Source: Falsiroseomonas oleicola
GTDB lineage: Bacteria; Pseudomonadota; Alphaproteobacteria; Acetobacterales; Acetobacteraceae
Length of the DNA stretch: 64,000 nt
NCBI RefSeq assembly: GCF_019029495.1
Contig: NZ_JAERQM010000008.1
Coordinates: 1-64,000, forward strand
Reading direction: 5' to 3'
The notes beneath the pieces are model-generated. The model did no database searches and was not told the origin of the DNA. It saw only the letters and a program-made list of their open reading frames with translations. Shown piece by piece: positions 22,633 to 38,460 of this stretch (positions are counted from its first letter, which is position 1; every line of letters starts with the position of its first letter). Both the position numbers and the translations under genes were made by a program.

Positions 22633-23301
22633 ATGAAAGACACAACTCCCTACCGTGACCCTGCCACGGCGAAGAAGACCCTGGGGCTGGAGCCCTGCAT
22701 CGATCCGACCGCCCAGGTGCGCGACAGCCAGTTCGGCATCTATACGGAAGTCGGCGCCCGCACGACGGTCGCGGAGACCAGCTTCGGCGACTATTCCTAC
22801 GTCGTGCAGGACAGCCAGATCATCTACACGACGGTGGGAAAGTTCTGCTCCATCGCCAGCCATACGCGGATCAACCCCGGCAACCACCCGCTGCAGCGCG
22901 TGGCGCTGAGCCACGTCACCTATCGGGCCAGCGCCTATGGCCTGGGCGAGGATGAGGCCGGCTTCTTCGACTGGCGGCGCGAACACCATGTCACGCTGGG
23001 CCATGATGTCTGGATCGGCCATGGCGTGGTGGTGCTGCCCGGCGTCACGATCGGCACTGGCGCTGCGATCGGCGCGGGTGCGGTGGTGACGAAGGACATC
23101 CCGCCTTTCGCCATCGCGGTGGGGAATCCAGCGCGGATTCTGCGCTTCCGATTCCCGCAGGCGGTGCAGGACAGCCTGCGGCGCATCGCCTGGTGGGACT
23201 GGTCGCGCGACAAGCTGGCCGCAGGACTGGATGACATCCGTCGCTTGTCCGCAGAGCAGTTCTGCGAACGGCACGACCCGGCCTTCTGTCACAAAGACTA
23301 A
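22633..23301 (+). CDS. phosphonate-metabolism-type hexapeptide acyltransferase (DapH/GlmU-like)
   Basis: About 222 aa left-handed beta-helix transferase. It carries IDPTAQVRDSQFGIYTEVGA, GKFCSIASHTRINPGNHP, HVTYRASAYGLGEDEAGFFDWRR and HDVWIGHGVVVLPGVTIGTG. This pattern matches the hexapeptide-repeat family found in phosphonate (C-P lyase) gene clusters. ATG 22633 fits homologs better than 22603; neither has a strong ribosome site. It precedes the phosphonate monoester hydrolase gene by 68 bp and is the first clue that the cluster concerns phosphonates. The acyl acceptor is unknown. Confidence 0.8.
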   Translation: MKDTTPYRDPATAKKTLGLEPCIDPTAQVRDSQFGIYTEVGARTTVAETSFGDYSYVVQDSQIIYTTVGKFCSIASHTRINPGNHPLQRVALSHVTYRASAYGLGEDEAGFFDWRREHHVTLGHDVWIGHGVVVLPGVTIGTGAAIGAGAVVTKDIPPFAIAVGNPARILRFRFPQAVQDSLRRIAWWDWSRDKLAAGLDDIRRLSAEQFCERHDPAFCHKD

Positions 23302-23325
23302 GCCGAGCCGTCACAAGACGGTCGC
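23286..23325 (+). promoter_or_regulatory. Pho-box-like repeats before the hydrolase gene
   Basis: Heptamers CTGTCAC (23286), CCGTCAC (23308) and CGGTCGC (23319) sit at multiples of 11 bp; the slot at 23297 is degenerate. CTGTCAY repeated every 11 bp is the PhoB binding pattern. The array ends about 45 bp before the hydrolase ATG, so phosphate-starvation control is plausible but not certain. Confidence 0.4.
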
Positions 23326-23369
23326 CACTCCCCGGCTAAGCCCCGCCGCATCGAATGGAGCGGCGCAGC

Positions 23370-24926
23370 ATGGCCAGGCGGAAAAACGTACTTCTCATCG
23401 TGGTGGATCAGTGGCGGGCGGATTTCGTGCCCGCCCTCGGCGCGGATTTCCTGCGCACGCCGAACCTGGACCGGCTGTGCCGCGAGGGTGTCACCTTCCG
23501 CAACCACGTCACCAACACCGTCCCCTGCGGCCCGGCGCGCGCCAGCCTGTTGACCGGCCTGTATCTGATGAACCATCGCGCCGTGCAGAACACGGTGCCG
23601 CTGGATGCGCGCCACACCAACCTCGGCAAGCAGCTTCGCCTGATCGGCTACGACCCGGCGCTGATCGGCTACACGACGACGACGCCGGACCCGCGCACCA
23701 CCGGCCCGAAGGACCCGCGCTTCACCACGCTCGGCGATCTGATGGACGGCTTTCGCAGTGTCGGCGCCTTCGAGCCGAACATGGACGGCTATTTCGGCTG
23801 GCTCGCGCATCAGGGCTACGAACTGCCGGCGAAGCGCGAGGACATCTGGCTGCCGGAGGGTGAGGACGCCGTGCCGGGCGCGACCAACCGCCCCTCCCGC
23901 ATCCCTTCGGAACTGTCGGACACGAGCTTCTTCACGGAAAAGGCGCTGACCTATCTGAAGGGCAAGGGCGAGAAGCCCTGGTTCCTGCACCTCGGCTACT
24001 ACCGCCCGCATCCCCCCTTCATCGCGCCCGCGCCCTACAACACCATGTACGACCCGGCGGACATGCCGGCCCCCGTGCGCGCGCCGCGCTGGGAGGAGGA
24101 GGCGGAACAGCACCCGCTGCTGCGCCACTACCTGCGCGCCATCGGCCAGGCCAGCTTCTTCCGTGGCGGCCAGGGTGCCGGCGCGGGCCTCGACGAGGCC
24201 AGCATCCGCCAGATGCGCGCCAGCTACTGCGGCCTGATGACCGAGATCGACGACGCGCTCGGCCGCGTCTTCGCCTATCTCGAACAGACTGGGCAGTGGG
24301 ATGACACGACCATCATCTTCACCTCCGACCATGGCGAGCAACTCGGCGACCATTGGCTGCTCGGCAAGCTCGGCTATTTCGACCAGAGTTTTCGGATTCC
24401 GCTGGTGGTGAAGGGCGCCGGTGCGCAGGCCGGGCTGATCGACGACACGCTGACGGAAAGCGTCGATGTGATGCCGACCATCCTCGACATCCTCGGCGGC
24501 GACGTGCCGCGCGCCTGCGACGGCCGTTCGCTGCTGCCGGTTCTGGCCGGCAACAAGCCCGCCGATTGGCGTGAGCTGCACCACTACGAATACGACTTCC
24601 GCGACATCCACTACTCCCAGCCCGAGACGGCACTGGGCCTGACGATGGACACGTCGAGCCTCTGCGTCGTGCAGGATGCCGACTACAAATACGTCCACTT
24701 CGCCGCCCTGCCGCCGCTGTTCTTCGACCTGAAGCGCGACCCGAACCAGTTCGAGAACCGCGCCGAGGATCCCGAATACGCCGCCCGCGTGAAGGACTAC
24801 GCCCAGCGCGCCCTGTCGCTGCGCCTGCGCCACGCCGACCGCACGCTGACCCATTTCCGCGCCACACCGCAGGGCCTGGACGAGCGCCGCCCGGCGCCGC
24901 CCGCGCTGCGCGCCGCCGCCGAATAA
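23370..24926 (+). CDS. phosphonate monoester hydrolase (sulfatase/alkaline phosphatase superfamily)
   Basis: 518 aa. It matches Rhizobium and Burkholderia phosphonate monoester hydrolase along its length from memory: NVLLIVVDQWRADF (metal Asp13), PCGPARASLLTG with the formylglycine-forming Cys53, GYTTTTPDPRTT, GYYRPHPPFIAPAPY, TSDHGEQLGDHWLLGK, and a tail rich in the same motifs. Such enzymes hydrolyse phosphonate monoesters, phosphodiesters and sulfate esters, and need Cys oxidation to formylglycine. There is no signal peptide, so it acts inside the cell. GGAG lies 9 nt before ATG 23370. Five receptor genes and an ABC transporter follow without breaks. Confidence 0.92.
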   Translation: MARRKNVLLIVVDQWRADFVPALGADFLRTPNLDRLCREGVTFRNHVTNTVPCGPARASLLTGLYLMNHRAVQNTVPLDARHTNLGKQLRLIGYDPALIGYTTTTPDPRTTGPKDPRFTTLGDLMDGFRSVGAFEPNMDGYFGWLAHQGYELPAKREDIWLPEGEDAVPGATNRPSRIPSELSDTSFFTEKALTYLKGKGEKPWFLHLGYYRPHPPFIAPAPYNTMYDPADMPAPVRAPRWEEEAEQHPLLRHYLRAIGQASFFRGGQGAGAGLDEASIRQMRASYCGLMTEIDDALGRVFAYLEQTGQWDDTTIIFTSDHGEQLGDHWLLGKLGYFDQSFRIPLVVKGAGAQAGLIDDTLTESVDVMPTILDILGGDVPRACDGRSLLPVLAGNKPADWRELHHYEYDFRDIHYSQPETALGLTMDTSSLCVVQDADYKYVHFAALPPLFFDLKRDPNQFENRAEDPEYAARVKDYAQRALSLRLRHADRTLTHFRATPQGLDERRPAPPALRAAAE

Positions 24927-24937
24927 GGAGAATATCG

Positions 24938-26563
24938 ATGCAGATCTCCCGCCGCCTGATCCTCGCCGCACCGGCCGCGCTGGCCCTGCCGCGCTTCGCC
25001 ATCGCGCACGGCGACAACCGCCCCTCCATCACCATCGCCGTGCAGAAGGTGGTGAACAGCAACACCCTCGAAGTGCTGCGCGAGCAGTCCAATGTGGGGG
25101 AGCGCGTGTTCTTCTCCTCGCTGTGGGAAGGGCTGATCGGCCGCGACTGGCTCGGCCAGCTCGGCGCCGTGCCGGGGCTCGCCACCGAATGGCGCCGCAT
25201 CTCCGACCAGGTGGTGGAGTTGAAGCTGCGCCAGGGCGTGCGCTTCCACAATGGCGACGAGATGACGGCGGAAGACGTGGTCTTCTCCTTCTCCCGCGAC
25301 CGCATGTTCGGCAATACGCTGGCGACCGCCCAGGGCCGCACCATCCCGATCGGCGAGGGCATGCCCGCGCCACGCGCCGGCAAGGAACTGCCGCCGGAGG
25401 TTCCCGCCGTCGCCCGCCGTTCCTGGCCGGCGCTGGAGCGTGTGGAGGCCGTGGACAAGTACACGGTGCGTTTCCACAACGCGACGCCGGATGTGACGCT
25501 GGAAGGCCGCCTCTCGCGCTACGGCAGCGACATCATGAGCCGCCGTGGCTTCGAGGAAGCCGCAAACTGGCTGGAATGGGCGCGCAAGCCGATCACCACC
25601 GGCCCCTATATGGTGGCCGAATATCGCCCGGACGTGTCGCTGACGCTGGTGGCGCATGACGCCTATTGGGGCGGCCGCCCGCCGCTGAAGCAGATCCGCT
25701 TCGTCGAGGTGCCGGAGGTGTCCTCCCGCATCAACGGCCTGCTCTCCGGCCAGTACCAGTTCGCCTGCGACCTGCCGCCGGACCAGATCCCGGGCATCGA
25801 GGCGAACAGCGCCTTCGAAGTGCAGGGCGGCACCATCCTGAACCATCGCCTGATCTGCTTCGACAAGAACTTCCCCGCGCTGCGCGATGCCCGCGTGCGC
25901 CGCGCGCTGACGCATGCGATGGACCGCCAGGCGATCGTGGACAGCCTCTGGGCCGGGCGCACGGAAGTGCCGAAGGGTCTCCAGTGGCCCTATTACGACC
26001 AGATGTTCCACGCCGACTGGTCCGTGCCCGCCTTCGACCCGGCACTCGCCCGCCGCCTGCTGCGCGAGGCGAACTATCGCGGTGAGCCGATCCCCTATCG
26101 CCTGCTGAACAACTACTACACCAACCAGAATGCGACGGCGCAGGTGCTGGTCGAGATGTGGCGCCAGGTCGGCCTGAACGTGCAGATCGAGATGAAGGAG
26201 AACTGGTCGCAGATCCTGGAGCGCAGCCCGACGCGCGCCGTGCGCGACTGGTCCAACAGCGCCCCCTTCAACGACCCGGTCTCCTCGCTGGTGAACCAGC
26301 ACGGCCCGAACGGCCAGCAGCAGCAGGTCGGCGAATGGACGAATGAGGAGATGAACCGCCTGTCGGTCGAGCTGGAAACCAGCACCGACCGCCCGCGCCG
26401 CCGCGCCGTCTTCCGCCGCATGCTGGAGATCGCGGAGCGCGAGGACCCGGCCTATACCGTGATCCACCAGAACGCGACCTTCACGGCGAAGCGCAAGGAT
26501 ATCCGCTGGAAGGCGAGCCCAGCCTTCGCGATGGATTTCCGCGCCACCAACTGGGGGGCCTGA
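24938..26563 (+). CDS. peptide-type ABC substrate-binding protein 1 of 5
   Basis: 541 aa SBP_bac_5 (DppA/OppA fold) periplasmic receptor with an RR export signal (QISRRLILAAPAALALPRF). All five tandem paralogs share TITIAVQK, SNVG, YWGGRPP, EVPEVSSRINGL, ACDLPPDQI and NNYYTNQ blocks. This copy has the longest insert after RDRMFG (about residues 120-150), and its residues after SNVG (ERVFFSSLWEGL) differ from the others. AAGGAG precedes the ATG, 11 nt after the hydrolase stop. It ends NWGA, whose codons serve as the ribosome site of the next gene. Ligand probably an ester or peptide-like phosphonate; this is inference. Confidence 0.92.
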   Translation: MQISRRLILAAPAALALPRFAIAHGDNRPSITIAVQKVVNSNTLEVLREQSNVGERVFFSSLWEGLIGRDWLGQLGAVPGLATEWRRISDQVVELKLRQGVRFHNGDEMTAEDVVFSFSRDRMFGNTLATAQGRTIPIGEGMPAPRAGKELPPEVPAVARRSWPALERVEAVDKYTVRFHNATPDVTLEGRLSRYGSDIMSRRGFEEAANWLEWARKPITTGPYMVAEYRPDVSLTLVAHDAYWGGRPPLKQIRFVEVPEVSSRINGLLSGQYQFACDLPPDQIPGIEANSAFEVQGGTILNHRLICFDKNFPALRDARVRRALTHAMDRQAIVDSLWAGRTEVPKGLQWPYYDQMFHADWSVPAFDPALARRLLREANYRGEPIPYRLLNNYYTNQNATAQVLVEMWRQVGLNVQIEMKENWSQILERSPTRAVRDWSNSAPFNDPVSSLVNQHGPNGQQQQVGEWTNEEMNRLSVELETSTDRPRRRAVFRRMLEIAEREDPAYTVIHQNATFTAKRKDIRWKASPAFAMDFRATNWGA

Positions 26564-26566
26564 TCC

Positions 26567-28150
26567 ATGCTCCGCCGCCGCACCCTGCTGGCCGCCGCGC
26601 CGATCGGCGCGGCGGCGGCCACCTTGCCGCGCTTCGCCATCGCCCAGGGCGACCAGCGCCCCGTCATCACCATCGCCGTGCAGAAGATCGCCAATAACGG
26701 CACGCTGGATATCATTCGCGAAGCCAGCAATGTCGGCACGCGGTGGTACAACCTGTTCGGCGAGCCGCTGATCGACACGGACTGGACGGGCGATCTCGCC
26801 TTGCGCCCGGGCCTGGCCAGCGCCTGGCGCCGCATCGATGACCGCACCGTCGAGATCGATCTGCGCGACGATGTCCGCTTCCATGACGGCACAAGGCTGA
26901 CCGCCGAAGACGTGGCCTTCACCTTCAGCGCGGAACGCATGTTCGGCCGCGAGGGCCTGGCCGGCCCCGCCGCGCCGCCGCCCGAAGTCGTGGCTGGTGC
27001 ACGCGGCACCTTCCCGGGATTCGAGAAGGTGGAAGTGCTCGGCCCACACCGGCTCCGCTGGGTCAACCGCACCGGTGACGTGACGCTGGAAGGCCGCCTT
27101 TCGCACCGCGCCGGCAGCATCTTCCCTGCGGAGGCCTTTGCGCGCGCCGGTGGCTGGAGCCGCTTCGCCCAATCACCGATCGGCACCGGCCCCTATCGTG
27201 TCGCCGAATGGCGCATCGACAGCCGTCTGGTGCTGGAAGCCTTCGACGACTACTGGGGCGGCCGCCCGCCGATCCGCCAGATACGCTTCCTGGAAGTGCC
27301 GGAGCTGTCCTCCCGCATCAACGGCATGTTCGCCGGCGAATACGACTTCGCCTGCGACATCACGCCCGACCAGATCGCGACCATCGAGCGTGATCCGCGC
27401 TTCGAGGTGGTGGGTGGCGTCATCATGAACCACCGCGTCACGCATTTCGACACGACGCATCCGGTGCTGGAGAACCCTCTGGTCCGCCGCGCGATGACGC
27501 ATGCTGTGGACCGCAAGGCCATCGTCGACAGCCTCTGGGCCGGCCGCACCGAAATCCCCGCCGGCCTTCAATTCCCCTTCTTCGAGGGCATGATGGCGCA
27601 GGGCTGGTCCGTGCCGCGCTTCGACGTCACGGAAGCCCGCCGCCTGCTGCGCGAGGCGAATTACCGCGGCGATCCGATCCCCTATCGCATGCTGAACAAC
27701 TACTACACCAACCAGACCTCCACCGGTCAGGTGATGATGGAGATGTGGCGCGCCGCGGGGCTGAATGTCGAAATGCAGATGGTGGAGAATTGGGGCCAGG
27801 CGCAGGCCGCCGGCCCCGGCCGCGGCATGTTCGAACACTCCGTCACCGCCTTCTTCAACGACCCCGTCTCCTTCGTTCCCACCACCTATGGTCCGCGCGG
27901 CTCGCTCAGCCGCAACGGCATGTGGAAGAATGCCGAGTTCATGGCGCTGGTCCCGCAGCTGGAATCCGGCACGGACCGCACGCGCCGCGCCGCCATCTGG
28001 GCGCGCATGCTCCAGATCATGGAACGCGAGGACCCGGTGGTGAACGTCATCCACCAGACCGCCAACTTCACCGCGAAACGCCGCAACATCACCTGGCGTC
28101 CCGCGAAATCCTTCGTGATGGATTTCCGCCGCCAGAACTGGGGGGCCTGA
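26567..28150 (+). CDS. peptide-type ABC substrate-binding protein 2 of 5
   Basis: 527 aa paralog of the previous gene, 3 nt after its stop. Export signal LRRRTLLAAAPIGAAAATLP. It has ITIAVQKIANNGTLD, REASNVGTR, YWGGRPPIRQI and ACDITPDQI, and ends QNWGA. The segment after SNVGTR (WYNLFGEPLID) and the shorter insert after ERMFG set it apart. It lacks signs of decay, with full-length and conserved core blocks. The receptor presumably delivers to the single permease pair downstream. Confidence 0.92.
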   Translation: MLRRRTLLAAAPIGAAAATLPRFAIAQGDQRPVITIAVQKIANNGTLDIIREASNVGTRWYNLFGEPLIDTDWTGDLALRPGLASAWRRIDDRTVEIDLRDDVRFHDGTRLTAEDVAFTFSAERMFGREGLAGPAAPPPEVVAGARGTFPGFEKVEVLGPHRLRWVNRTGDVTLEGRLSHRAGSIFPAEAFARAGGWSRFAQSPIGTGPYRVAEWRIDSRLVLEAFDDYWGGRPPIRQIRFLEVPELSSRINGMFAGEYDFACDITPDQIATIERDPRFEVVGGVIMNHRVTHFDTTHPVLENPLVRRAMTHAVDRKAIVDSLWAGRTEIPAGLQFPFFEGMMAQGWSVPRFDVTEARRLLREANYRGDPIPYRMLNNYYTNQTSTGQVMMEMWRAAGLNVEMQMVENWGQAQAAGPGRGMFEHSVTAFFNDPVSFVPTTYGPRGSLSRNGMWKNAEFMALVPQLESGTDRTRRAAIWARMLQIMEREDPVVNVIHQTANFTAKRRNITWRPAKSFVMDFRRQNWGA

Positions 28151-28154
28151 GCCC

Positions 28155-29729
28155 ATGAAACTGTCCCGTCGTTCCGCGCTGAAACTGGGCGCCGGCCTGC
28201 CTGTCGCGCTGGCCGCGCCCGCTTTGGCGCAAGCCGATACACGCCCGGTCATCACCATCGCGGTGCAGGAGATCACCAACTCCAACATGCTGGAGATGCT
28301 GACGGAACAATCCAATGTCGGCACCCGCATCTTTCGCAACTATGTGGAGCCGCTGGTCGATACGGACTGGATCGGCGACATGGCGATGCGCCCTGGCCTG
28401 GCCAGCGCCTGGCGCCGCATCGACGACCGCAGCGTCGAATTCACGCTGCGCGATGGCGTGCGCTTCCACAATGGCGATCCGCTGACGGCGGAGGAGGTTG
28501 CCTTCTCCTTCGGCCCCGAACGCATGTGGGGTGGCAGCGAGGGCGGCAAGGCGCCGCCCGCCGGCGGCGCGCAGACCGCACGCCGCATCTTCCCGGGCTT
28601 CGAGAAGATGGAGGTGGTGGATGCGCGCACCGTCCGCTTCATCAACCGCACGCCTGACCTGACGCTGGAAGGCCAGATGGCGCGCACCGCCGCCGTCATC
28701 GCCAATCGCCGCGCCTTCGAGGCCGCGCCGAGCTGGCAGGACTGGGCGCGCAAGCCGGTGGGCACCGGCCCCTATGTCGTTGCCGACTTCCGGCCCGGCC
28801 AGATGCTGGTACTGGAAGCCTTTGACCACCACTGGCAGGGCCGCCCGCCGATCCGCCGGCTGCGCTTCGTACAGGTTCCCGAAGTCGCCTCCCGCATCAA
28901 TGCGTTGCTGTCCGGCGAGGTGGATTTCGCCTGCGACATTCCGCCCGACCAGATCGTGCAGATCGAACGCAATCCTCGCTTCGAGGTCGCCGGCGGCCCG
29001 ATCAACAACACCCGCATCATCTGCTTCGACCAGCAGCACCCGTCGCTCGCCAATCCGCTGGTCCGTCGTGCCCTGACCCACAGCATTGACCGTCAGTCGA
29101 TCGTGGAGGCGCTGTGGGCCGGGCGCATCGACATCCCGCGTGGCCTGCAATGGGACTTCTACGGCGACATGCTGGTCTCAGACTGGCAGGTGCCGCGCTT
29201 CGACATGGCTGAGGCGCGCCGCCTGCTGCGTGAGGCGAATTATCGTGGCGAGCCGATCCCCTATCGCTGCCTGAACAACTACTACACCAACCAGACCGCG
29301 ACGGCGCAGATCCTGGTCGAAGGCTGGCGCGCGGTCGGCCTCAATGTGCAGCTCCAGATGATGGAGAATTGGGGCCAGATCACCGGCCGTGCGACGCAGC
29401 CCGGCATCCGCGACTGGTCGCAATCCTCCACCCTGCCCGATCCGGCCGCGCAGATGGTGCCCAATTACGGCCGCGGTGGCGCGCCCTGGGTGCGCGGCGA
29501 ATGGCGCAACGAGGAGTTCGGAACACTCGCCGCCGAATTGCAGTCCAGCGTCGATCGCCCGCGTCGGCGCCAGGCCTGGCGGCGAATGCTTCAGATCATT
29601 GAGCGCGAGGACCCTGCCTATACCGTCCTGCATCGGAACGGAAACTTCACCGCCAAGCGCCGCGACATCGCCTGGCGCGCCGCGCAGTCCTTCGTGATGG
29701 ATTTCCGCGGCAGCAATTGGGGAGCCTGA
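28155..29729 (+). CDS. peptide-type ABC substrate-binding protein 3 of 5
   Basis: 524 aa paralog, 4 nt after the previous stop. The export signal runs KLSRRSALKLGAGLPVALAAPALA. It shares ITIAVQEITNSNML, TEQSNVGTR, HHWQGRPPIRRL (YWGG replaced by HWQG), ACDIPPDQIVQIERNPRFE and NNYYTNQTATAQILVEGWR. The HWQG change in an otherwise invariant block and the short Gly-rich insert suggest a shifted ligand pocket. It ends SNWGA with an embedded GGGGAG for the next gene. Confidence 0.92.
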   Translation: MKLSRRSALKLGAGLPVALAAPALAQADTRPVITIAVQEITNSNMLEMLTEQSNVGTRIFRNYVEPLVDTDWIGDMAMRPGLASAWRRIDDRSVEFTLRDGVRFHNGDPLTAEEVAFSFGPERMWGGSEGGKAPPAGGAQTARRIFPGFEKMEVVDARTVRFINRTPDLTLEGQMARTAAVIANRRAFEAAPSWQDWARKPVGTGPYVVADFRPGQMLVLEAFDHHWQGRPPIRRLRFVQVPEVASRINALLSGEVDFACDIPPDQIVQIERNPRFEVAGGPINNTRIICFDQQHPSLANPLVRRALTHSIDRQSIVEALWAGRIDIPRGLQWDFYGDMLVSDWQVPRFDMAEARRLLREANYRGEPIPYRCLNNYYTNQTATAQILVEGWRAVGLNVQLQMMENWGQITGRATQPGIRDWSQSSTLPDPAAQMVPNYGRGGAPWVRGEWRNEEFGTLAAELQSSVDRPRRRQAWRRMLQIIEREDPAYTVLHRNGNFTAKRRDIAWRAAQSFVMDFRGSNWGA

Positions 29730-29731
29730 AC

Positions 29732-31351
29732 ATGACCACCCTCACCCGCCGCGGCGCCTTCGGGCTCGCCGGCGCCTCGCTGATCCTGCCGCGCTTCGCG
29801 ATTGCGCAGGCGGACCAGCGTCCGACCATCACCATCGCGGTGCAGAAGCTGGCGAACACCAACACGCTGGAGCCGCTGCGCGAGCAGTCCAATGTCGGCA
29901 CGCGCACCTGGCACAGCTATGCCGAGACGCTGATCGAGCAGAGCTGGACCGGCGATCTCGGCCTGAAGCCGGCGCTCGCCGAATCCTGGCGCCGCATCGA
30001 CGACCGCACGGTGGAGCTCTCGCTGCGCCGCGGCGTCCGCTTCCATGACGGGCGGGAGATGACGGCGGAAGACGTCGCCTTCTCCTTCAGCGCGGAACGC
30101 ATGGGCTGGGGCATGACGGTGGAGCAGGCGCGCAACCTGTTCGCCGTGATCCCTGGCCAGAACCCCGGCCGCACACCGCCGCCCGAGGTGCTCGCCGTGG
30201 CGCGCCGCACCTATCCGGCCTTCGAGCGCATCGAGATCGTGGACCGCCACACGGTGCGCTTCGTGAACAAGGTGCCCGACGTCACGCTGGAAGGCCGCAT
30301 CAGCCGCAATGTCGGCGCGATCTTCTCCCGCCACGCCTTCGAGCAGTCTGCCTCCTGGCTCGACTGGGCGCGCCGACCCATCGGCACGGGCCCCTATCGC
30401 GTCGCGGAATTCCGCCCCGACCAGTCGCTGATCCTGGAAGCCTTCGACGATTACTGGGGTGGCCGCCCGCCGATCGCGCGGCTGCGCTTCATGGAAGTTC
30501 CGGAGGTGGCGTCGCGCATCAACATGCTGTTGTCCGGCGAGGCCGACTTCGCCTGCGACATGCCGCCCGACCAGATCGTTCAGATCGAACGCAACCCGCG
30601 CCACCAGGTGGTCGGCGGCCCGATCATGAACCATCGGCTGACAGTGTTCGACAAGAACCACCCGGTGCTCGCCAACCCGCTGGTGCGCCGCGCCTTCACC
30701 CACAGCATCGACCGCGACGCCATCACCGCGGCGCTGTGGGACAGCCGCGCGCCGGTGCCGAAGGGGCTGCAATTCCCCTTCTATGGCGAGATGTTCCACC
30801 AGGATTGGGAAGCACCGAAGTTCGACCTCGCCGAGGCACGCCGCCTGCTGCGCGAGGCGAACTATCGCGGCGAGGCCATCCCCTATCGCCTGCTGAACAA
30901 CTACTACACCAACCAGACGCCGACCGCGCAGATCCTGGTGGAAGGCTGGCGCCAGGTCGGGCTGAACGTGCAGATCGAGATGCGCGAGAATTTCCCGCAG
31001 GTGCTGTCGCGCGAAGGCCAGCGTGGCGTGCGGGACTGGTCGAACAGCGCCAGCTTCAACGACCCCACCGCCTCCATCACCGCGCAGCACGGGCCGCAGG
31101 GCCAGCAATGGCAGATCGGCGAATGGCGCAACGAGGAATTCGGCCGCCTGTCCGGTGAGCTGGAGACCAGCACCGACCGCGCCCGTCGCCGTGTGGTGTT
31201 CCGCCGCCTGCTGGAAATCGCGGAGCGCGAGGACCCCGCCTACACCGTGCTGCACCAGTCGGTGAACCTGACGGCCAAGCGCCGCGACATCGCCTGGAAC
31301 GCGGCGCAATCCTTCGCCATGGATTTCCGCAGCCGGAACTGGGGAGCCTGA
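29732..31351 (+). CDS. peptide-type ABC substrate-binding protein 4 of 5
   Basis: 539 aa paralog, ATG 2 nt after the previous stop; GGGGAG within the preceding NWGA codons is the ribosome site. Export signal LTRRGAFGLAGASLILPRF. It has LREQSNVGTRTWHSYAETLI, YWGGRPPIARL, ACDMPPDQIVQIERNPRHQ and a long insert after ERMGWG (about 25 residues). The C-terminal half is very like that of paralog 1. It is closer to copies 1 and 3 in places, which suggests serial duplication with exchange. Confidence 0.92.
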   Translation: MTTLTRRGAFGLAGASLILPRFAIAQADQRPTITIAVQKLANTNTLEPLREQSNVGTRTWHSYAETLIEQSWTGDLGLKPALAESWRRIDDRTVELSLRRGVRFHDGREMTAEDVAFSFSAERMGWGMTVEQARNLFAVIPGQNPGRTPPPEVLAVARRTYPAFERIEIVDRHTVRFVNKVPDVTLEGRISRNVGAIFSRHAFEQSASWLDWARRPIGTGPYRVAEFRPDQSLILEAFDDYWGGRPPIARLRFMEVPEVASRINMLLSGEADFACDMPPDQIVQIERNPRHQVVGGPIMNHRLTVFDKNHPVLANPLVRRAFTHSIDRDAITAALWDSRAPVPKGLQFPFYGEMFHQDWEAPKFDLAEARRLLREANYRGEAIPYRLLNNYYTNQTPTAQILVEGWRQVGLNVQIEMRENFPQVLSREGQRGVRDWSNSASFNDPTASITAQHGPQGQQWQIGEWRNEEFGRLSGELETSTDRARRRVVFRRLLEIAEREDPAYTVLHQSVNLTAKRRDIAWNAAQSFAMDFRSRNWGA

Positions 31352-31353
31352 AC

Positions 31354-32961
31354 ATGACCAAGATCTCCCGCCGTGCCCTTCTCGCGGCACCGACGCTGCT
31401 GGCGATGCCGGCCATCGCGCAGAGCGATGACCGGCCGACGCTGACGATTGCCGTGCAGAAGCTGTCGAATTCCAACACCTTCGAGCCGCCGCGCGAACAA
31501 TCCAATGTCGGCTTCCGCATCCATGGCCTCTATGCGGAGCAGTTGGTCGGCACGAACTGGCTCGGCAATGCGGAGCTGGTTCCGGGCCTTGCCACCGAAT
31601 GGCGCCGTCCGGATGCCTCCACGCTGGAACTCACGCTGCGGCAGGGCGTGCGCTTCCATGACGGGCGGGAGATGACGGCGGAAGATGTCGCCTTCTCCTT
31701 CGGCGAGCGCCTGTTCGGCACGCAGGGCGCAGCCGGCACGGGGCGATCCGGCGTACTGGCAGGCACCGCGACCAAGGAGCCGCCGGCCGAGGTGGTCGCC
31801 GTCAGCCGCCGCACCTATCCGGGTCTGGAGCGGATCGAGATCACAGGTCGCAACACGCTGCGCTTCATCAACCGCACGCCGGATGTGACGCTGGAAGGCC
31901 GCCTGGCACAGAGCGTCGGCGCCATCCTCTCCCGCCAGGCTTTCGCCGCCGCGCCGAGCTGGCTGGAATGGGGCCGCGCGCCCGTCGGCACGGGCCCCTA
32001 CCGCATCGCGGACTTCCGCCCCGACACCTCCCTCGTCATGGAAGCGCATGACAGCTACTGGGGCGGCCGACCGCCCGCGCGGCGCCTGCGCTTCGTCGAG
32101 GTGCCGGAAGTCTCCGGCCGGGTGAACGGCCTGTTCTCCGGCGAATATGACTTCGCCTGCGACATTCCGCCCGACCAGATCAGCGTCGTGGAGCGCAACA
32201 GCCGCTTCGAGGTGCTGGGCAGCCCGATCAACAACATCCGCAAGCTGGCCTTTGACAAGACCAACCCGGTGCTGGCCGATGCGCGCATCCGCCGTGCCAT
32301 GACCCATGCCATCGACCGGCGCGTGCTGGTGGAGACGCTCTGGGCCGGGCGCACCGCGATTCCGCGCGGCATGCAGCTGGAAAGCTACGGCGCCATGTAT
32401 CTCCCGGATTGGGAGAATCCGCGCTTCGACCCGGCGGAGGCACGCCGCCTGCTGCGGGAGGCGAACTACCAGGGCCAGCCGATCACCTATCGCCTGCTGA
32501 ACAACTACTACACCAATCAGGTGGCCAGCGGGCAGATCGCCGTCGAGATGTGGCGCGCCGTGGGCCTGAACGTGCAGATCGAGATGCTGGAGAACTTCCC
32601 GCAGGTCACCGCCCGCACCCCGGGGCGCGGCGTTCGAGATTGGTCCAATACCTCCATTTTCGGCGACCCGGTCGCCGGCATCCTGCGCAGCTTCGGCCCG
32701 CGCACGGAATCCGAGCGCAACGGCGAATGGGCCAATGAGGATTTCAACCGCGTCGCCACCGCGCTGGAGGCCGAGACCGACATCGCCCGCCGCCGCGAGC
32801 TGTTCCGCCGCCTGCTGACCATCGTGGAGCGGGAGGACCCGGGCTACATCGTGCTGCACCAGGCGGCCGCCTTCACGGCGAAGCGCAAGGACATCCAGTG
32901 GCGCGCCGCGAATGGCTGGGCGATGGTCTTCGGCCCCGGCAATCTGCGGGTCGGCGCATGA
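31354..32961 (+). CDS. peptide-type ABC substrate-binding protein 5 of 5
   Basis: 535 aa paralog, 2 nt after the previous stop. Export signal KISRRALLAAPTLLAMPAIA. It has PPREQSNVGFRIHGLYAEQL, YWGGRPPARRL, ACDIPPDQISVVERNSRFE and NNYYTNQVASGQIAVEMWR. It alone loses the NWGA end (it ends NLRVGA) and instead overlaps the ATPase gene by ATGA. This suggests it is the receptor originally linked to the transporter, with the other copies amplified upstream, though that is inference. Confidence 0.92.
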   Translation: MTKISRRALLAAPTLLAMPAIAQSDDRPTLTIAVQKLSNSNTFEPPREQSNVGFRIHGLYAEQLVGTNWLGNAELVPGLATEWRRPDASTLELTLRQGVRFHDGREMTAEDVAFSFGERLFGTQGAAGTGRSGVLAGTATKEPPAEVVAVSRRTYPGLERIEITGRNTLRFINRTPDVTLEGRLAQSVGAILSRQAFAAAPSWLEWGRAPVGTGPYRIADFRPDTSLVMEAHDSYWGGRPPARRLRFVEVPEVSGRVNGLFSGEYDFACDIPPDQISVVERNSRFEVLGSPINNIRKLAFDKTNPVLADARIRRAMTHAIDRRVLVETLWAGRTAIPRGMQLESYGAMYLPDWENPRFDPAEARRLLREANYQGQPITYRLLNNYYTNQVASGQIAVEMWRAVGLNVQIEMLENFPQVTARTPGRGVRDWSNTSIFGDPVAGILRSFGPRTESERNGEWANEDFNRVATALEAETDIARRRELFRRLLTIVEREDPGYIVLHQAAAFTAKRKDIQWRAANGWAMVFGPGNLRVGA

Positions 32962-33941
32962 GCGCGCCGCTCGTCTCCCTCAAGGGCCTGCGCGTCAGCT
33001 TCGATGGGCAGGCTGCGCTGCGCGGCATCGACCTGGATGTCGCGCCCGGCGAATCCGTGGGCCTTGTCGGTGAATCCGGCTGCGGCAAGTCCGTCACCTG
33101 GCTCGCGGCGCTGGGCCTGCTGCCCGGCCGCGCCAGCATCTCCGGCAGCGTTAAGCTGGATGGCCAGGAGTTGTTGCCGGCGCGCCCGCAGGTGCTCGAC
33201 CGCGTGCGCGGCGGCCGTATCGCCATGATCTTCCAGGACCCCGCGAGCAGCCTCAACCCCGTGCACCGCATCGGCAAGCAGATCACGGAGGCGCTGCGCC
33301 TGCATCGTGGCATGAATGGCGCCGAGGCCCGCGCCGAGGCGAAGCGGCTGCTCGACCAGGTCGGCATCCCCGACGCCGCGCGCCGCCTCGATGCCTGGCC
33401 GCACGAACTCTCCGGCGGGCAGAATCAGCGCGTGATGATCGCCATCGCGCTGGCCGGCCGGCCGGAACTGCTGGTGGCGGATGAGCCCACCACGGCGCTC
33501 GACGTCACCATCCAGGCGCAGATCCTGACCCTGCTGCAGGAGCTGCGGCGGGAGACGGGGATGGCGCTGGTGCTGATCTCGCACGACCTCGGCGTGGTCG
33601 CCGATAGCTGCGAGCGGGTCTGCGTGATGTATGCGGGACGCATCGTCGAACAGGTGCCCACCGCGCGGCTGTTCGAGGCGCCGGCGCATCCCTACACCCG
33701 CGGCCTGCTCGGCGCCCTGCCGCCGCTGCATGGGCCGCGCCGCCCGCTTTCCGCCATTCCCGGTGGCGTGCCGGAGCCCTGGGCGATGCCGACCGGCTGC
33801 GCCTTCGCGCCGCGCTGCGCCATGCATGTCTCCGCATGTGATGCCAATGTGCCGGAGCAGGTCAGCCTCGCGCGCAACCACCGCGCCGCCTGCATCCGCG
33901 CCACCCTCCCAGCCCCGCATCCGGAGACCGTCTACGCATGA
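32958..33941 (+). CDS. oligopeptide-type ABC transporter ATPase (DppD-like)
   Basis: 327 aa nucleotide-binding subunit. Walker A GESGCGKS is at residues 38-45, signature LSGGQNQR and Walker [13 protein letters not shown]. It ends with the oligopeptide-type C-terminal region ([16 protein letters not shown]) that can hold an Fe-S-like Cys set. ATGA overlaps couple it both to receptor 5 and to the second ATPase. It energises import through the two permeases downstream. Confidence 0.94.
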
Positions 33942-34942
33942 GGAAGGATGGGGAACTGCTCGTCGCGCAAGGCATCACGCGTCGCTACGCGATGCGGCGC
34001 GGCGTGATGGGCAAGTCGGTCGAGGTGCGCGCCGTCGATGGCGTCTCCCTGACGCTGGAGCGGGGCCGCACGCTGGGACTCGTGGGCGAATCCGGCTGTG
34101 GCAAATCCACCACCGGTCGCCTGGTGCTGGGGCTGGAGCGGCCGGATGACGGCAGCGTGGCCTTCGAGGGCCGCCCCATGCCAACGCCCAACACGCAGGA
34201 GTGGCGCAAGCTTCGCGCGCGCATGCAGATGGTGTTCCAGGACCCGCTGGGGGCGCTTGACCGGCGCCTGCCGATCGGTGCGCAGGTGATGGAACCGCTG
34301 GAGATCCACAACGTCGGCACGCCCGCCGAACGAAAGGAGCGCGTCGCCGAATTGCTGCGTGGCGTCGGCCTGCGGCCGGACCAGGCGGAGCGCTATCCGC
34401 ACGAACTCTCGGGCGGGCAGCGCCAGCGCGCCGTGCTGGCGCGTGCGCTCGCCACCAACCCCGCCATGCTGGTCTGCGACGAGCCGATCAGCGCGCTGGA
34501 TGTCTCGATCCAGGCGCAGGTGATGAACCTGCTGGTGGAGCTGCAATCCCGCCTTGGCCTCGGCATCCTGTTCATCAGCCACGATCTGCGGGCCGTGCGG
34601 CAGGTGAGCCATCGCGTGGCCGTGATGTATCTCGGCCGCATCGTCGAGGAGGGCGAGCCGGACGAGGTGCTGCACGACCCGGCGCACCCCTATGCCCAGG
34701 CGCTCGTCTCCGCGATTCCGCATCCTGGCAAGATCGGCCGCGGCATCGTGCTGCAGGGCGACCCGCCCAATCCGGCCGACCGTCCCTCCGGCTGCGCCTT
34801 CCATCCGCGCTGCGCCTTCGCCTCCGCGCTCTGCGCACGCGAAACCCCTGTGCTGAAGCCGCGCTCCGGCGACGGCCGCCTCGTGGCCTGCCACGTCGCC
34901 CAGGGTGAGATCGCCCCCGGCAATCTGCAAAAGGCCGCCTGA
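33938..34942 (+). CDS. oligopeptide-type ABC transporter ATPase (DppF-like)
   Basis: 334 aa partner ATPase. Walker [17 protein letters not shown] signature, Walker B MLVCDEPISALDVS, then the oligopeptide C-terminal motif PSGCAFHPRCAFAS. It forms a heterodimer with the preceding ATPase, whose gene it overlaps by 4 bp (ATGA). The permease gene starts 1 nt after its stop. Confidence 0.94.
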   Translation: MRKDGELLVAQGITRRYAMRRGVMGKSVEVRAVDGVSLTLERGRTLGLVGESGCGKSTTGRLVLGLERPDDGSVAFEGRPMPTPNTQEWRKLRARMQMVFQDPLGALDRRLPIGAQVMEPLEIHNVGTPAERKERVAELLRGVGLRPDQAERYPHELSGGQRQRAVLARALATNPAMLVCDEPISALDVSIQAQVMNLLVELQSRLGLGILFISHDLRAVRQVSHRVAVMYLGRIVEEGEPDEVLHDPAHPYAQALVSAIPHPGKIGRGIVLQGDPPNPADRPSGCAFHPRCAFASALCARETPVLKPRSGDGRLVACHVAQGEIAPGNLQKAA

Positions 34943-34943
34943 C

Positions 34944-35879
34944 ATGATGCGATTCTTCGCCAGCCGCCTGCTGCGCGCCGCCATCACCATCGTGATGGTG
35001 GTGACTTTCGCCTTCATCGTGCTGCGCCTGTCCGGTGACCCCGCGCAGATCATTATGGGCGCCGATGCCCCGCCCGAGGCGGTGGACGCCTTCCGCACGG
35101 CCTGGGGCCTCGATCAGCCCGTGTGGCTGCAGTACTTTCACTATTTTGGTGCCATCTTTCAGGGCGACCTCGGGCGTTCCATGCGTGACGGGCGCGATGC
35201 CATCGTGCTGGTGACGGAGCGGATTCCAGCCACCCTGGCGCTGACCATCCCCGCGCTCATCATCAAGCTCGGCCTCGGCATTCCCGCCGGCATCACCGCG
35301 GCGCTGCACCGCAACTCCTTCATCGACCGCGCCGTGATGCTGCTGGCGGTCGCCGGCTTCACCGTGCCGTCCTTCGTGCTCGGGTTGTTGCTGGTGCTGG
35401 TCTTTGCCGTGCAGCTCGGCTGGCTGCCCTCCGGCGGGCAGGAAAGCTGGCGCCACGCCATCCTGCCCATCATCACCATGGGTGTCGGCGGCGCCGCCGT
35501 GCTGGCGCGCTTCACCCGGTCCGCGATGCTCGAAGTGCTCGGCCAGCCCTATATCCGCACGGCCTCCGCCAAGGGCGTGCCGTGGCGCTCGGTGGTCTGG
35601 GGGCACGCCCTGCCCAACGCCGCCATCCCCACCGTCACCATCGTGGGCTTCATGGTCGGCAGCCTGATCGCCGGCGCCGTCGTCGTCGAAAGCGTCTTCT
35701 CCTGGCCCGGTGTCGGGCGCCTGCTCGTCGTCGCCGTCGCCAACCGGGACCTCGCCGTCGTGCAATGCATCCTGCTGCTGGTCGCGGCCACCATGGTCAC
35801 CGCCAATCTGGTGGTGGACCTGCTCTACGGCCTGCTCGACCCGCGACTTCGCAACCAACCCAAGCGCGCGGCGGCCTGA
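34944..35879 (+). CDS. oligopeptide-type ABC permease (DppB-like)
   Basis: 311 aa inner-membrane subunit with about six helices. The N-terminal helix (RLLRAAITIVMVVTFAFIVL) is followed by GDPAQIIMG, and the EAA-like loop reads YIRTASAKGVPWRSVVWGHALPNA, where it contacts the ATPases. It ends ESVFSWPGVGRLLVVAV as in DppB. ATG 34944 (or 34947) is 1 nt after the ATPase stop. Confidence 0.94.
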   Translation: MMRFFASRLLRAAITIVMVVTFAFIVLRLSGDPAQIIMGADAPPEAVDAFRTAWGLDQPVWLQYFHYFGAIFQGDLGRSMRDGRDAIVLVTERIPATLALTIPALIIKLGLGIPAGITAALHRNSFIDRAVMLLAVAGFTVPSFVLGLLLVLVFAVQLGWLPSGGQESWRHAILPIITMGVGGAAVLARFTRSAMLEVLGQPYIRTASAKGVPWRSVVWGHALPNAAIPTVTIVGFMVGSLIAGAVVVESVFSWPGVGRLLVVAVANRDLAVVQCILLLVAATMVTANLVVDLLYGLLDPRLRNQPKRAAA

Positions 35880-35882
35880 ACC

Positions 35883-36761
35883 ATGTCCGACATCACCGCC
35901 CCCCTCACCCTGCCCACCACCGCGCCCCGCAAGGCGCGGCCGCTGCCACCGCCGATGGTGATCTTCGGCCTGGTCTGGCTGGCCGCCATGCTCGCCACCG
36001 CGCTGCTGGCCGATGTCATCAGCCCCTATGCCTATACCGCGCTCGACCTGCGCAACCGCCTCTCGCCCCCCATCGGCATGGGCGGCACCTGGCTGCACCC
36101 GCTCGGCACGGACGAACTCGGCCGCGATGTGCTGGCACGCCTGATCTACTCGATCCGCATGAGCCTTCTCATCGCCTTCGGCGCCACCATCATCGGCGCC
36201 GTGGTCGGTACCACCCTCGGCTTCCTCGCCGCCCACTTCCGCGGCTTCGTGGAACAGGTGGTGCTGGCGCTGGTCGACTTCTCGGCCAGCCTGCCCTTCC
36301 TGATCCTGGCGCTGTCCGTCCTCGCCTTCTTCGGCAACTCGATGGTGCTGTTCATCTGCCTGCTCGGCTTCCACGCCTGGGAACGCTACGCCCGCATCGC
36401 CCGCGGCCTGGCGATCTCCGCCAACGGCCAGGGCTACGCTGCCGCAGTGCGCCAACTCGGCGCCACCCCCTGGCGGATCTACGGGCGCCACGTGCTGCCG
36501 AACATCGCCTCCACCCTCATCGTCTCGATGACCCTCGCCTTCCCGGAAATCATCCTGCTGGAATCCGGCCTCTCCTTCCTCGGCCTCGGCGTGCAACCGC
36601 CCGCCACCTCCCTCGGCTCCATGGTCGGCTACGGCCGCGAATACCTGACCCGCGCCCCCTGGATCCTGCTCGCCCCGGCCTTCACCATCATCCTGACCAC
36701 CCTCTCCGTCTCCCTCCTCGGCGACTGGCTCCGCGACCGCCTCGACCCGACCCTGCGGTGA
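35883..36761 (+). CDS. oligopeptide-type ABC permease (DppC-like)
   Basis: 292 aa second permease. It has HPLGTDELGRDVLARLIYSIR, the EAA-like loop YAAAVRQLGATPWRIYGRHVLPN, ESGLSFLGLGVQPPATSLGSM and DWLRDRLDPTLR, the standard DppC pattern. It starts 3 nt after the DppB-like stop and closes the transporter operon. A BIME-like palindromic element follows. Confidence 0.94.
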   Translation: MSDITAPLTLPTTAPRKARPLPPPMVIFGLVWLAAMLATALLADVISPYAYTALDLRNRLSPPIGMGGTWLHPLGTDELGRDVLARLIYSIRMSLLIAFGATIIGAVVGTTLGFLAAHFRGFVEQVVLALVDFSASLPFLILALSVLAFFGNSMVLFICLLGFHAWERYARIARGLAISANGQGYAAAVRQLGATPWRIYGRHVLPNIASTLIVSMTLAFPEIILLESGLSFLGLGVQPPATSLGSMVGYGREYLTRAPWILLAPAFTIILTTLSVSLLGDWLRDRLDPTLR

Positions 36762-36782
36762 GGAGGGTTGCGCGGGTGGTTT

Positions 36783-36993
36783 GCAAGGAGGGCTCTGCCC
36801 TCCCTGCACCCTCCCGCGAAGGGGCAGTGGCCCCTTCGATCCCTTGGATGAGGGGTAGGCGAGAGGAGGGGCACGGAGCGACCGCTTGTCCCGACGCGCC
36901 CGCCATGCCCCTCCTCTCGCCTACCCCTTAACGGGATTCCAAAGGGACCACTGTCCCTTTGGCAGGGGGTGCAGGGGGACAGCGTCCCCCTGC
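36783..36993. repeat. BIME-like composite palindromic element
   Basis: Two inverted copies of a REP-like unit flank a 23-bp perfect inverted repeat (36851-36873/36906-36928). Each unit has two hairpins: 36787-36803 and 36817-36838 on the left, 36939-36962 and 36971-36993 on the right. The right unit is the reverse complement of the left with scattered, partly compensatory changes. It sits between the transporter operon and the phosphodiesterase gene, and could act as a transcription or RNA-stability boundary. Confidence 0.8.
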
Positions 36994-37035
36994 AATCACC
37001 CGCACCACCTTCCTCAACCATAGGAGTCCGTGTCG

Positions 37036-38460
37036 ATGTCGCGTTTCGTGCTGGTGGCGTTGGATGGGTTGAGGCCGGACATGGTGTCGGCCGCGGCGAC
37101 GCCGCATTTGGCGGGGTTGGTGGCGGCGGGGACGCGGTTTGCGAATGCGCGGAGTGTGTTTCCGAGTGAGACGCGGGTGGCGACGCCGTCGCTCATCACC
37201 GGGTGCCGGCCGGGTGGGCATGGGATGGTGGCGAATACCTTGTTCGATGCGGGGGTGGCGCCGGACCGGTTGTTGCGGACGAAGCTGGTGGCCGATGTGC
37301 TGGCCATGGCGAAGGGGGCGGAGAGCCCCCTGGAGCGGTTGAGCCTTGGGGAGAGGCTGGCGGCGGCCGGGCGCAGCTTTGCGCTGGTCAGCGCGGGCAC
37401 GGCGGGGGCGGCGCGGTTGCTGCATCCGGCGGCGGAGCGGCTGGGCGGTTTTCGCTGGAATGTCGAGGATACCGAAGGCGCGACGGCGGCGGAGGTGCGG
37501 GCGGCGCTGGGCGAGACCCCGGCCCATGCCGTGCCGAATCTTGGCCGGGTGGCGCATGCGGGGCGGGTGCTGCTGGAGCATGTGCTGCCGAAGCTGAAGC
37601 CGGATGTGGCGCTGCTGTGGCTGTCGGAGCCGGATATCGCCTTCCATTGGGGCGGGCTGTTGTCGCCGGAGGCGAAGGCCGGGTTGGCGGCGGCGGATGC
37701 GGTTGTGGGCCAGGTGGTGGCCTGGCGGGATGCGCAGCCGGATGCGGCGGAGATCGGCATCGTGGTGCTGTCCGACCACGGCCATGTGACGGGGCGCGGC
37801 AAGCTGTCGCTGGCGGCAGAGCTGCGGCGGGCGGGCTTTCGGGCCGGCACCGGCATGGCGCCGGATGTGGATGTCGTGGTGGCGCCCGCCGCCGCGCCGG
37901 GGATGTGGTTCCGGGACAAGGCGCTGGCGCCGCAGGTGGCGGAATTCCTGGCGACCCAGGCCTGGGCCGGGCCGCTGCTGGCGCGCGATCCGGGGATTCT
38001 GCCGGCGGGCCAGGCCATGGCGCTGTCGGTGCTCGGCAGCGGGCATCGGCGCAGCGCCGATCTGGTCGCGACGTTTGCGGGCAGCGCGGAGGCCGATGAA
38101 TGGGGCCTGCCCGGCCATGCGCCCTTCGATGCGCCGGATGTGCCGGAGGGTGGCGGCATGCATGGCGGGCTGCACCGGGCGGAGCTGGCGACGGTGCTGG
38201 TGATGCAGGGTGGCCCGTTCCGGCGCGGCGCGGTGGCACAGTCCCCCGCCGACCTCACCGACATCGCCCCCACCGTGCTGCATCTGCTGGGGCTGGGCCC
38301 GGAGGGCTGCGAGGGCCGCCCGCTGGCCGCCGCCTGGGACGCGGCGCGGGATGCCGCGCCGCTGCACGAGCTGGTCGAAATGCCGCGCGGCTTCGTGCTG
38401 GAAGCGATGCGGGCGGAGCCGGCGGGCCGGCTCTACCCCACCGGAATGCGGAAAGTTTAG
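37036..38460 (+). CDS. type I phosphodiesterase / alkaline phosphatase family protein
   Basis: 474 aa metal-dependent hydrolase of the nucleotide pyrophosphatase/phosphodiesterase clan. It has metal Asp10 in LVALDGLRPD, nucleophile-type Thr46 in FPSETRVATPSLITG, SEPDIAFHWGG, VLSDHGHV and a late MHGG motif. It has no signal peptide. Possible substrates are phosphodiesters, or a phosphonate such as phosphonoacetate. AGGAG lies 9 nt before ATG 37036, and a GTG 6 bp upstream is too close to that site. It follows the transporter operon across the palindromic element. Confidence 0.82.
   Translation: MSRFVLVALDGLRPDMVSAAATPHLAGLVAAGTRFANARSVFPSETRVATPSLITGCRPGGHGMVANTLFDAGVAPDRLLRTKLVADVLAMAKGAESPLERLSLGERLAAAGRSFALVSAGTAGAARLLHPAAERLGGFRWNVEDTEGATAAEVRAALGETPAHAVPNLGRVAHAGRVLLEHVLPKLKPDVALLWLSEPDIAFHWGGLLSPEAKAGLAAADAVVGQVVAWRDAQPDAAEIGIVVLSDHGHVTGRGKLSLAAELRRAGFRAGTGMAPDVDVVVAPAAAPGMWFRDKALAPQVAEFLATQAWAGPLLARDPGILPAGQAMALSVLGSGHRRSADLVATFAGSAEADEWGLPGHAPFDAPDVPEGGGMHGGLHRAELATVLVMQGGPFRRGAVAQSPADLTDIAPTVLHLLGLGPEGCEGRPLAAAWDAARDAAPLHELVEMPRGFVLEAMRAEPAGRLYPTGMRKV

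Follow-up and report, generated by a model that had tools for sequence, protein, structure and literature searches.

An acc-like import operon of Falsiroseomonas oleicola with the hydrolase PehA and five AccA-type receptors

Described systems and the organization of the operon

The acc system of Agrobacterium couples a single receptor, the agrocinopine receptor AccA, and its ATP-binding cassette (ABC) importer to the intracellular phosphodiesterase AccF, under control of AccR and with a link to quorum sensing. It is one of the closest described counterparts of an operon that we have analyzed in a 64,000-nt stretch of DNA from Falsiroseomonas oleicola (the window, to which all positions refer; positions 1 to 64,000 of contig NZ_JAERQM010000008.1, which is contig C29 of a 5.6 Mb genome labeled G000 in our genus set). 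The operon encodes, on the + strand, the hydrolase PehA, five receptors in tandem and one ABC importer. It resembles acc in receptor fold, in the phosphate-ester clamp and in the combination of an ABC importer with an intracellular phosphodiesterase, but differs by its five receptors, by PehA and by a Pho-box-like site. We describe it as an acc-like importer with PehA in the place of AccF and with a conserved receptor set of variable length. In our view it serves, with a probability of about 70%, the import of sugar- or polyol-type phosphodiesters, possibly also of phosphonate esters, under phosphate starvation, followed by cleavage inside the cell by PehA.

A second counterpart is found on plasmid pRL9 of Rhizobium leguminosarum (johnstonii) 3841. 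Here, a PehA/phosphonate monoester hydrolase (PMH) gene, whose product is 73% identical to the window PehA (507 aligned residues), is directly followed by an AccA-type receptor and its importer (two ATPases and two permeases). This locus differs by its single receptor and by the LacI-type regulator gene that follows. The crystallized PMH of R. leguminosarum (PDB 2vqr) is the pRL9 protein except for its mutated nucleophile Cys.

Sets of five receptors are described for two peptide importers. In Pseudomonas aeruginosa, DppA1-5 share the importer DppBCDF, with dppA1-4 next to the transporter and dppA5 elsewhere, and four of the five receptors bound peptides with differing profiles (PMC12728205). 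The Opp system of Borrelia has the receptors OppA1-A5, of which three are in tandem and thought to be derived from duplication; it differs from the window operon by its peptide substrates, its two permease pairs and its two plasmid-borne receptors (PMC5736914). The importers PhnCDE, PhnSTUV and AepXVW also take up organophosphorus compounds for degradation, but in the form of free phosphonates. A 2023 review on phosphonate degradation lists these three along with symporters, with no phosphonate-ester importer in that listing (PMC10574752); a word search of its text found neither "monoester" nor "PehA". Among the open-access papers listed by our searches we found no description of a PehA-linked receptor array or of a phosphonate-ester importer. 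A sequence-only reading of the same DNA had considered five receptors for one transporter unusual. This needs qualification: array length runs from one to six receptors in the loci studied here, and the Dpp and Opp systems have five receptors as well.

The first gene of the operon is pehA (23370..24926; alternative start at 23355), encoding a phosphonate monoester hydrolase/phosphodiesterase of the formylglycine (fGly) type with a sulfatase fold (NF045661). It is followed by five genes for AccA-type SBP_bac_5 proteins: receptor 1 with a twin-arginine start (24938..26563), receptor 2 (26567..28150), receptor 3 (28155..29729), receptor 4 (29732..31351, with the ATG start at 29732) and receptor 5 (31354..32961). 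The gaps between them measure 3, 4, 2 and 2 nt. Two ABC ATPases with ABC_tran/oligo_HPY matches come next, one OppD-like (32958..33941) and one OppF-like (33938..34942). The ATG of the first (32958) overlaps the stop of receptor 5 by 4 nt, and the second overlaps the first by the same length. Permease B (34947..35879, with ATG 34944 also possible) and permease C (35883..36761) close the operon. One permease is assigned to BPD_transp_1 by Pfam, and the second resembles OppC-like NCBIfam models at scores below their cut-offs. From pehA through the permeases, the spacing between neighboring genes is 1-11 nt, except where they overlap by 4 nt. These coordinates agree with the earlier description of five tandem SBP_bac_5 genes 2-4 nt apart, followed by two ATPases and two permeases.

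The receptor set

The receptors had been called peptide-type, a label that has to be replaced by AccA-like. Each of them matches a single Pfam family, SBP_bac_5 (217-248 bits, cut-off 32.4), hence no PhnD-type receptor was found by Pfam, and all five begin with a twin-arginine motif followed by a hydrophobic stretch. In sequence searches the nearest solved structure is AccA for 5/5 receptors, with E-values of 2.2e-75, 9e-75, 1.2e-74, 6.9e-82 and 3.2e-77 for receptors 1 to 5, while the first structure other than AccA appears at 1.8e-26, 2.3e-28, 5.6e-33, 3e-40 and 1.1e-29, respectively. AccA thus leads the next protein by 42-49 orders of magnitude across the five receptors. The predicted structure of receptor 1, the one receptor modeled (mean pLDDT 89.1), gives the same result: AccA entries are on top in Foldseek (8e-51, first non-AccA entry 4.5e-40) and in VIA-align (Z 45.0, rmsd 1.9 over 483 residues, first non-AccA entry Z 38.1).

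In AccA, the phosphate is held by Asn54, Ser419, Tyr375 and Tyr376, and O1 of the pyranose by Asn54, Glu510, Asn284 and Ser419 (PMC4526662). The clamp formed by Asn54, Asn284, Tyr375, Tyr376 and Ser419 is present in 5/5 window receptors. It is complete in 161/164 full-length receptors surveyed, the window five included, with the other three gapped at these positions, and all five positions are invariant in the 82 receptors that were confidently classed. The remainder of the genome was represented by 56 aligned SBP_bac_5 proteins (63 family-5 hits minus the window five and two split pieces); one of them keeps all five residues, one keeps four and 54 keep at most one. The relative with four residues (C26:81488) stands alone beside a calcineurin-like phosphoesterase. 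The one with all five clamp residues (C25:351145) is an orphan receptor on contig C25 (C25:350797-352410; L020 8795-10411) with about 58% identity to the array and with no importer genes among its called neighbors. Similar copies outside the array occur in genomes G001, G007, G012 and G014. The C25 orphan possibly serves the importer of the array as a sixth receptor.

Outside the clamp, the pocket differs among the receptors. The sugar-side positions 145, 178, 423, 430 and 434 of AccA vary, and the full pyranose site (Glu510, Trp178, Trp423, Thr430 and Glu434) is not kept, so that we call the receptors AccA-like and do not file them as agrocinopine receptors. Across 13 other contact positions (PMC4526662), with loop 403-408 left out, the mean number of class consensuses is 2.5, versus 2.0 in other columns (p 0.044). 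For eight of these 13 positions the mean reaches 3.0 (p 0.007-0.008), but the eight were picked post hoc, after inspection of the residues. Position 504, given as Glu504 in PMC4526662, is Trp in AccA by our numbering. These comparisons suggest a constant phosphate grip within a pocket that otherwise differs among the five receptors, at a modest excess over the background, and the five would then take different ligands of one chemical class. The earlier proposal that the receptor set may widen the range of esters is supported to this extent, and also by the age of the set.

A tree of 81 receptors places the five window receptors in five separate lineages. Support at several of its deeper nodes is 81-95, and a long branch leads to the first receptor of G007, which is divergent. 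Lineages 1, 3, 4 and 5 have members from several genera. Lineage 2 is found only in G000, G003, G007 and G011, and its sisters come from other genera (support 89/92). The order 1-2-3-4-5 is unbroken in 29/29 loci in which two or more receptors could be confidently assigned to differing classes; the window is included and defines the numbering, and of the 30 loci that passed, L112 was dropped since it has a single broken receptor. In L151, L153 and L156 a class-3-like receptor lies upstream of PehA, and these loci, with one classed receptor each, fall outside the order test. Compared with their orthologues in three members of the genus, the receptors show pairwise dN/dS values of 0.07-0.40, indicating purifying selection. 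The array is thus an old set kept under selection, without recent amplification. Five recent tandem duplicates were considered and rejected, as the tree splits the receptors into separate lineages.

The number of receptors as such is uninformative on the substrate because the same genome contains an unrelated five-receptor array. On contig C30 (42296-50216; L001 5072-13511) five family-5 receptors occur with importer genes of their own. They are 45-55% identical mutually and 18-21% identical to receptor 3, and have at most one clamp residue; the nearest structure is 8vdx, as found for the one receptor of this array that was searched. The argument that five receptors in a row indicate phosphonate metabolism was rejected, given that the C30 array belongs to another subfamily.

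PehA, its linkage to the receptors and the upstream site

PMH/PehA enzymes are studied as models of promiscuity in hydrolases, and to our knowledge they have no agreed natural substrate. The assignment of the first gene of the operon as a phosphonate monoester hydrolase with Cys53 in a CxPxR motif and with Asp13 was correct: PehA scores 960 bits on NCBIfam NF045661 (cut-off 900) and, counted from ATG 23370, has Asp13 and Cys53 in the formylglycine motif (CGPAR). PehA and the Rhizobium enzyme (RlPMH) agree at 14/14 positions compared, including the nucleophile Cys and Thr107, which corresponds to Thr103 of PehA. For all but Thr107, this check used residue numbers that we take to be those of the active site of the Rhizobium enzyme. 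Thr107 is described as an active-site position in PMC5488252, and cleavage of phosphonate monoesters by enzymes of this family is reported in PMC5488252 and PMC5649143. A member of the formylglycine-generating enzyme family is encoded in the genome (PF03781 at C12:554561, 245 bits). Since inspection of the PehA sequence reveals no evident signal peptide, while the receptors start with twin-arginine motifs and hydrophobic stretches, PehA probably stays in the cytoplasm and the receptors are probably exported.

The linkage between PehA and the receptors was followed in a genus set of 15 genomes and in a wider family search of 347 genomes. In the genus, 12/15 genomes have a PehA match, 11 of them above the family cut-off, and all these 11 have AccA-type receptors directly downstream. 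Their operons count two receptors in G001, G002, G006, G009 and G013, three in G012, four in G003, G014 and G011 (the latter over two contigs), five in G000 and six in G007. In G007 (Falsiroseomonas selenitidurans; L072 5565-8344) a cassette of an extra divergent receptor and its own PF01663 phosphodiesterase lies between PehA and receptor 1.

In the family, 93/347 genomes have a PehA match at 1e-150. We read 92 PehA loci, namely 12 from the genus (window included) and 80/92 others; the remaining 12 non-genus places score below the family cut-off, and some of them are partial. PehA clusters with AccA-type receptors, one to six in number, in 82/87 loci with more than 700 bits to the window PehA (79 with the receptor directly downstream by script, and L118, L159 and L160 read by eye in the cluster). 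No receptor is present at L092, L103, L132, L142 and L152, of which L142 ends 2.6 kb past PehA, and 0/5 loci with a more distant PehA-like protein carry an AccA-type receptor. An ATPase and a permease are also visible in 68/79 script-linked loci, some of these stretches being cut by contig ends. Copy numbers were taken from the loci read and array lengths from open reading frame matches, where L112 and L141 probably have broken receptors counted twice and L139 has two receptors plus one later in the operon. The linkage extends to plasmids. By coordinates, the receptor hit directly adjoins the PehA hit (>60%) in 20/20 plasmid records, 19 from Rhizobium and one from Pseudoroseomonas, a count that leaves out three weaker PehA hits; the Pseudoroseomonas cervicalis plasmid has a single receptor behind PehA and then two ATPases and two permeases.

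Upstream of pehA lies the Pho-box-like direct repeat CCGTCACAAGACGGTCGC (23308..23325, + strand). With 9/14 matches it is weak alone, but relatives have better matches at the same place. Sites were scored with what we take to be the Pho-box consensus, the direct repeat of PhoB. A repeat of at least 10/14 on the sense strand at -115 to -40 of PehA occurs in 53/89 loci (the 87 PehA loci and two plasmid loci), versus 1/89 in an equal stretch further upstream and 1/89 on the opposite strand. In the 250-bp upstream regions, at least 10/14 matches are reached in 62/89 loci versus about 11% of dinucleotide shuffles. With a matrix trained outside the genus, the site at 23308-23325 ranks 112 of 127,966 window positions. 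As a positive control, PstS upstream regions of the genus reach at least 10/14 in 12/15 cases, one of the 12 (L261) being oddly placed; this control covers 360 nt on one strand and is not equal in size to the PehA test. The PstS promoter of the window genome itself also has 9/14 matches. In the PhnJ loci L245 and L246 no site of at least 11 matches was found, but these loci are short and the promoter possibly lies outside. PhoB probably controls the operon family as a whole, and it may do so in the window strain too.

Two genes flank the operon. Upstream, as noted before, lies a hexapeptide transferase of the "phosphonate metabolism" family TIGR03308 (22603..23301, + strand; 283.9 bits, NCBIfam cut-off 201.65), for which the earlier start corresponds to an internal ATG at 22633. 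Downstream, a type I phosphodiesterase/nucleotide pyrophosphatase (PF01663; 37030..38460, + strand) had been reported to follow the operon. The gene is there and is likely linked, as a homologue comes after the importer in 17/87 PehA-family loci, but it is set apart by 268 nt from the operon end. The interval between the last permease and this gene contains a perfect 21-nt inverted repeat (36852-36927) with two copies only in the window, and a terminator scan detected no terminator-like site there. Elsewhere in the window, a terC RNA (Rfam RF03067; 42878-42927, - strand; 47.7 bits versus a gathering threshold of 39.9) adjoins, on its upstream side, a TAXI-type TRAP transporter subunit (41424-42737) and not a terC gene.

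Candidate substrates and their weighing

We propose that the operon is an AccA-type phosphorus-scavenging import operon broadened by receptor diversification. The five exported receptors would share the phosphate-ester clamp and, differing elsewhere in the pocket, would each capture a different compound: a phosphate diester, or a phosphonate monoester, joining two groups, at least one of which is probably a sugar or other polyol. We infer that all five deliver to the single ABC importer. In the cytoplasm, PehA, as a formylglycine hydrolase, would cut the imported ester; the freed phosphomonoester or phosphonate would pass to phosphatases or C-P lyase, with the sugar or alcohol as a possible carbon source. 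Expression would probably be switched on in this lineage through PhoB under phosphate shortage. The clamp, the PehA residues, the lack of an evident signal peptide in PehA, the synteny and the Pho-box-like site of the relatives support the earlier idea of ester import with intracellular hydrolysis, though not the phosphonate form in which it was put.

Other partners of the importer family bear on the ligand. They were surveyed in the best 80 loci of a longer list obtained with the receptor profile, of which 41 have PehA and 39 do not. GDPD is found in 5/39 PehA-less loci (L181, L182, L189, L192 and L212), at L181 followed by an inositol-monophosphatase-family protein. In addition, GDPD comes directly after the permeases in R. 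sophoriradicis, a metallophosphoesterase stands alongside PehA in L149 and L184, and the Bosea locus L177, one of the 39, combines three receptors and the importer with a PF01663-like protein, with no PehA within the fetched stretch. This use of varied phosphodiesterase folds by one receptor family points to phosphodiesters. In several Bradyrhizobium loci, L196 and L193 among them, a single receptor occurs with an AP_endonuc_2-like TIM-barrel protein where PehA would be. Such a protein also lies beside the importer in Rhizobium sp. SSA_523 (Pfam was run on two such proteins overall), and genes annotated as LacI-family or sugar-binding regulators adjoin Rhizobium operons. These sugar-type proteins and regulators point to a sugar or polyol part of the ligand.

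Several observations weigh against this proposal. The five receptors are only 32-33% identical to AccA, and Glu510 of AccA, which also holds the pyranose O1, is replaced by Phe or Trp, because of which the receptors may not bind the pyranose-2-phosphate motif in its exact form. Pocket variation exceeds the background only modestly, and the window site matches the Pho-box at 9/14 positions, like the PstS promoter of the same genome. Among the 39 PehA-less loci, 33 gave no match to four phosphodiesterase queries (PehA, GDPD, a metallophosphoesterase and the PF01663 protein), although single-sequence queries can miss distant families, and in 32, mostly from Bradyrhizobium, the receptor is next to a TIM barrel of the AP_endonuc_2-like (xylose isomerase-like) kind. 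The result for these 33 loci speaks against a universal phosphodiester rule. In G000 itself, two loci with non-AccA receptors also have a hit to a sulfatase or a phosphoesterase at a distance of no more than 5 kb. Consequently, phosphodiesterase neighbors were dropped as a stand-alone argument, being weak on both counts. A five-receptor operon without the hydrolase, which would have spoken against the phosphonate-ester reading, was not seen among the loci read, but three receptors occur without PehA in Bosea and one in Bradyrhizobium.

Phosphonate esters are possible substrates because PhnJ of the C-P lyase is present in 15/15 genus genomes and 5/15 (G000, G007, G011, G012 and G014) have the TIGR03308 gene immediately upstream of PehA, an adjacency that may represent one event. 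In six further loci (L171, L173, L174, L176, L178 and L210) TIGR03308 occurs close to the operon and on the opposite strand. A marine study describes that some operons for C-P lyase include a putative chloramphenicol acetyltransferase, which may or may not be related to TIGR03308; its isolates have a phosphonate monoester hydrolase, and it postulates that hydrolases release phosphonates ester-linked to polysaccharides (PMC5649143). A PEP mutase/isocitrate lyase-family protein (PF13714) is encoded in the window at 10749-11642; it scores below the cut-offs of the NCBIfam models listed for it and is not called a phosphonate enzyme.

One may see the operon as a receptor-repertoire system for ester-bound phosphorus, in which a single AccA-type importer has an adjustable, order-conserved set of one to six receptors that samples different phosphodiesters and phosphonate monoesters linked to sugars or polyols and feeds PehA, including dedicated uptake of phosphonate esters; we regard this wider reading as tentative, with the odds somewhat against it. 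A system dedicated to phosphonate esters, which would import phosphonate monoesters such as sugar esters of methyl- or hydroxyethylphosphonate, free the phosphonate by PehA and break the C-P bond by C-P lyase, is unlikely. The activity of PMH-family enzymes on phosphonate monoesters and the distribution of PhnJ and TIGR03308 are in its favor, and a sugar phosphonate monoester, having nearly the same shape as the sugar phosphodiesters of AccA, would fit an AccA-like clamp about as well. However, the closest characterized receptor takes sugar phosphodiesters and some relatives pair the importer with GDPD, which is also why phosphonate as the substrate, as proposed before, is not upheld. Moreover, PhnJ lies on a separate contig in the window genome, and 4/15 genomes of the genus encode PhnJ without a PehA that passes the family cut-off.

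Less probable again is that the operon serves sugar or polyol catabolism, with carbon and not phosphorus as the goal, with sugar-containing esters as the receptor ligands and with PehA as a promiscuous phosphate/sulfate esterase. The AP_endonuc_2 proteins of Bradyrhizobium and Rhizobium sp. SSA_523 and the regulators annotated next to Rhizobium operons would suit such a role, whereas the Pho-box-like site upstream of PehA argues for phosphorus; the two goals are compatible and do not exclude each other. A Dpp/Opp-type peptide importer with five receptors as in Pseudomonas DppA1-5 and an unrelated hydrolase alongside is very improbable and was rejected: the transporter superfamily is the same and the tested ATPase and permease match Opp/Dpp models below their cut-offs, but AccA is nearest to all five receptors, Asp at AccA position 423, the equivalent of DppA Asp408 according to PMC4526662, occurs in 0/164 receptors, and the PehA linkage in 82/87 loci and the Pho-box-like site also speak against it.

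The import of sugar- or polyol-type phosphodiesters for phosphorus thus keeps the outline of the sequence-only reading, with AccA-type receptors in the place of peptide-type ones and with the phosphonate ester widened to esters of phosphate or phosphonate that probably contain a sugar or polyol. At this locus PMH/PehA acts downstream of a specific importer whose receptor pocket can be read, which turns the substrate question into one of ligand binding by five proteins, or by a single protein in Rhizobium. If our proposal is true, the cell gains access to phosphodiesters, and possibly to phosphonates bound to sugars, through the multiplication of receptors and not of transporters, beyond the known peptide cases. 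The more tentative receptor-repertoire reading, if true, would in addition provide a dedicated uptake route for phosphonate esters and a natural role for PehA/PMH.

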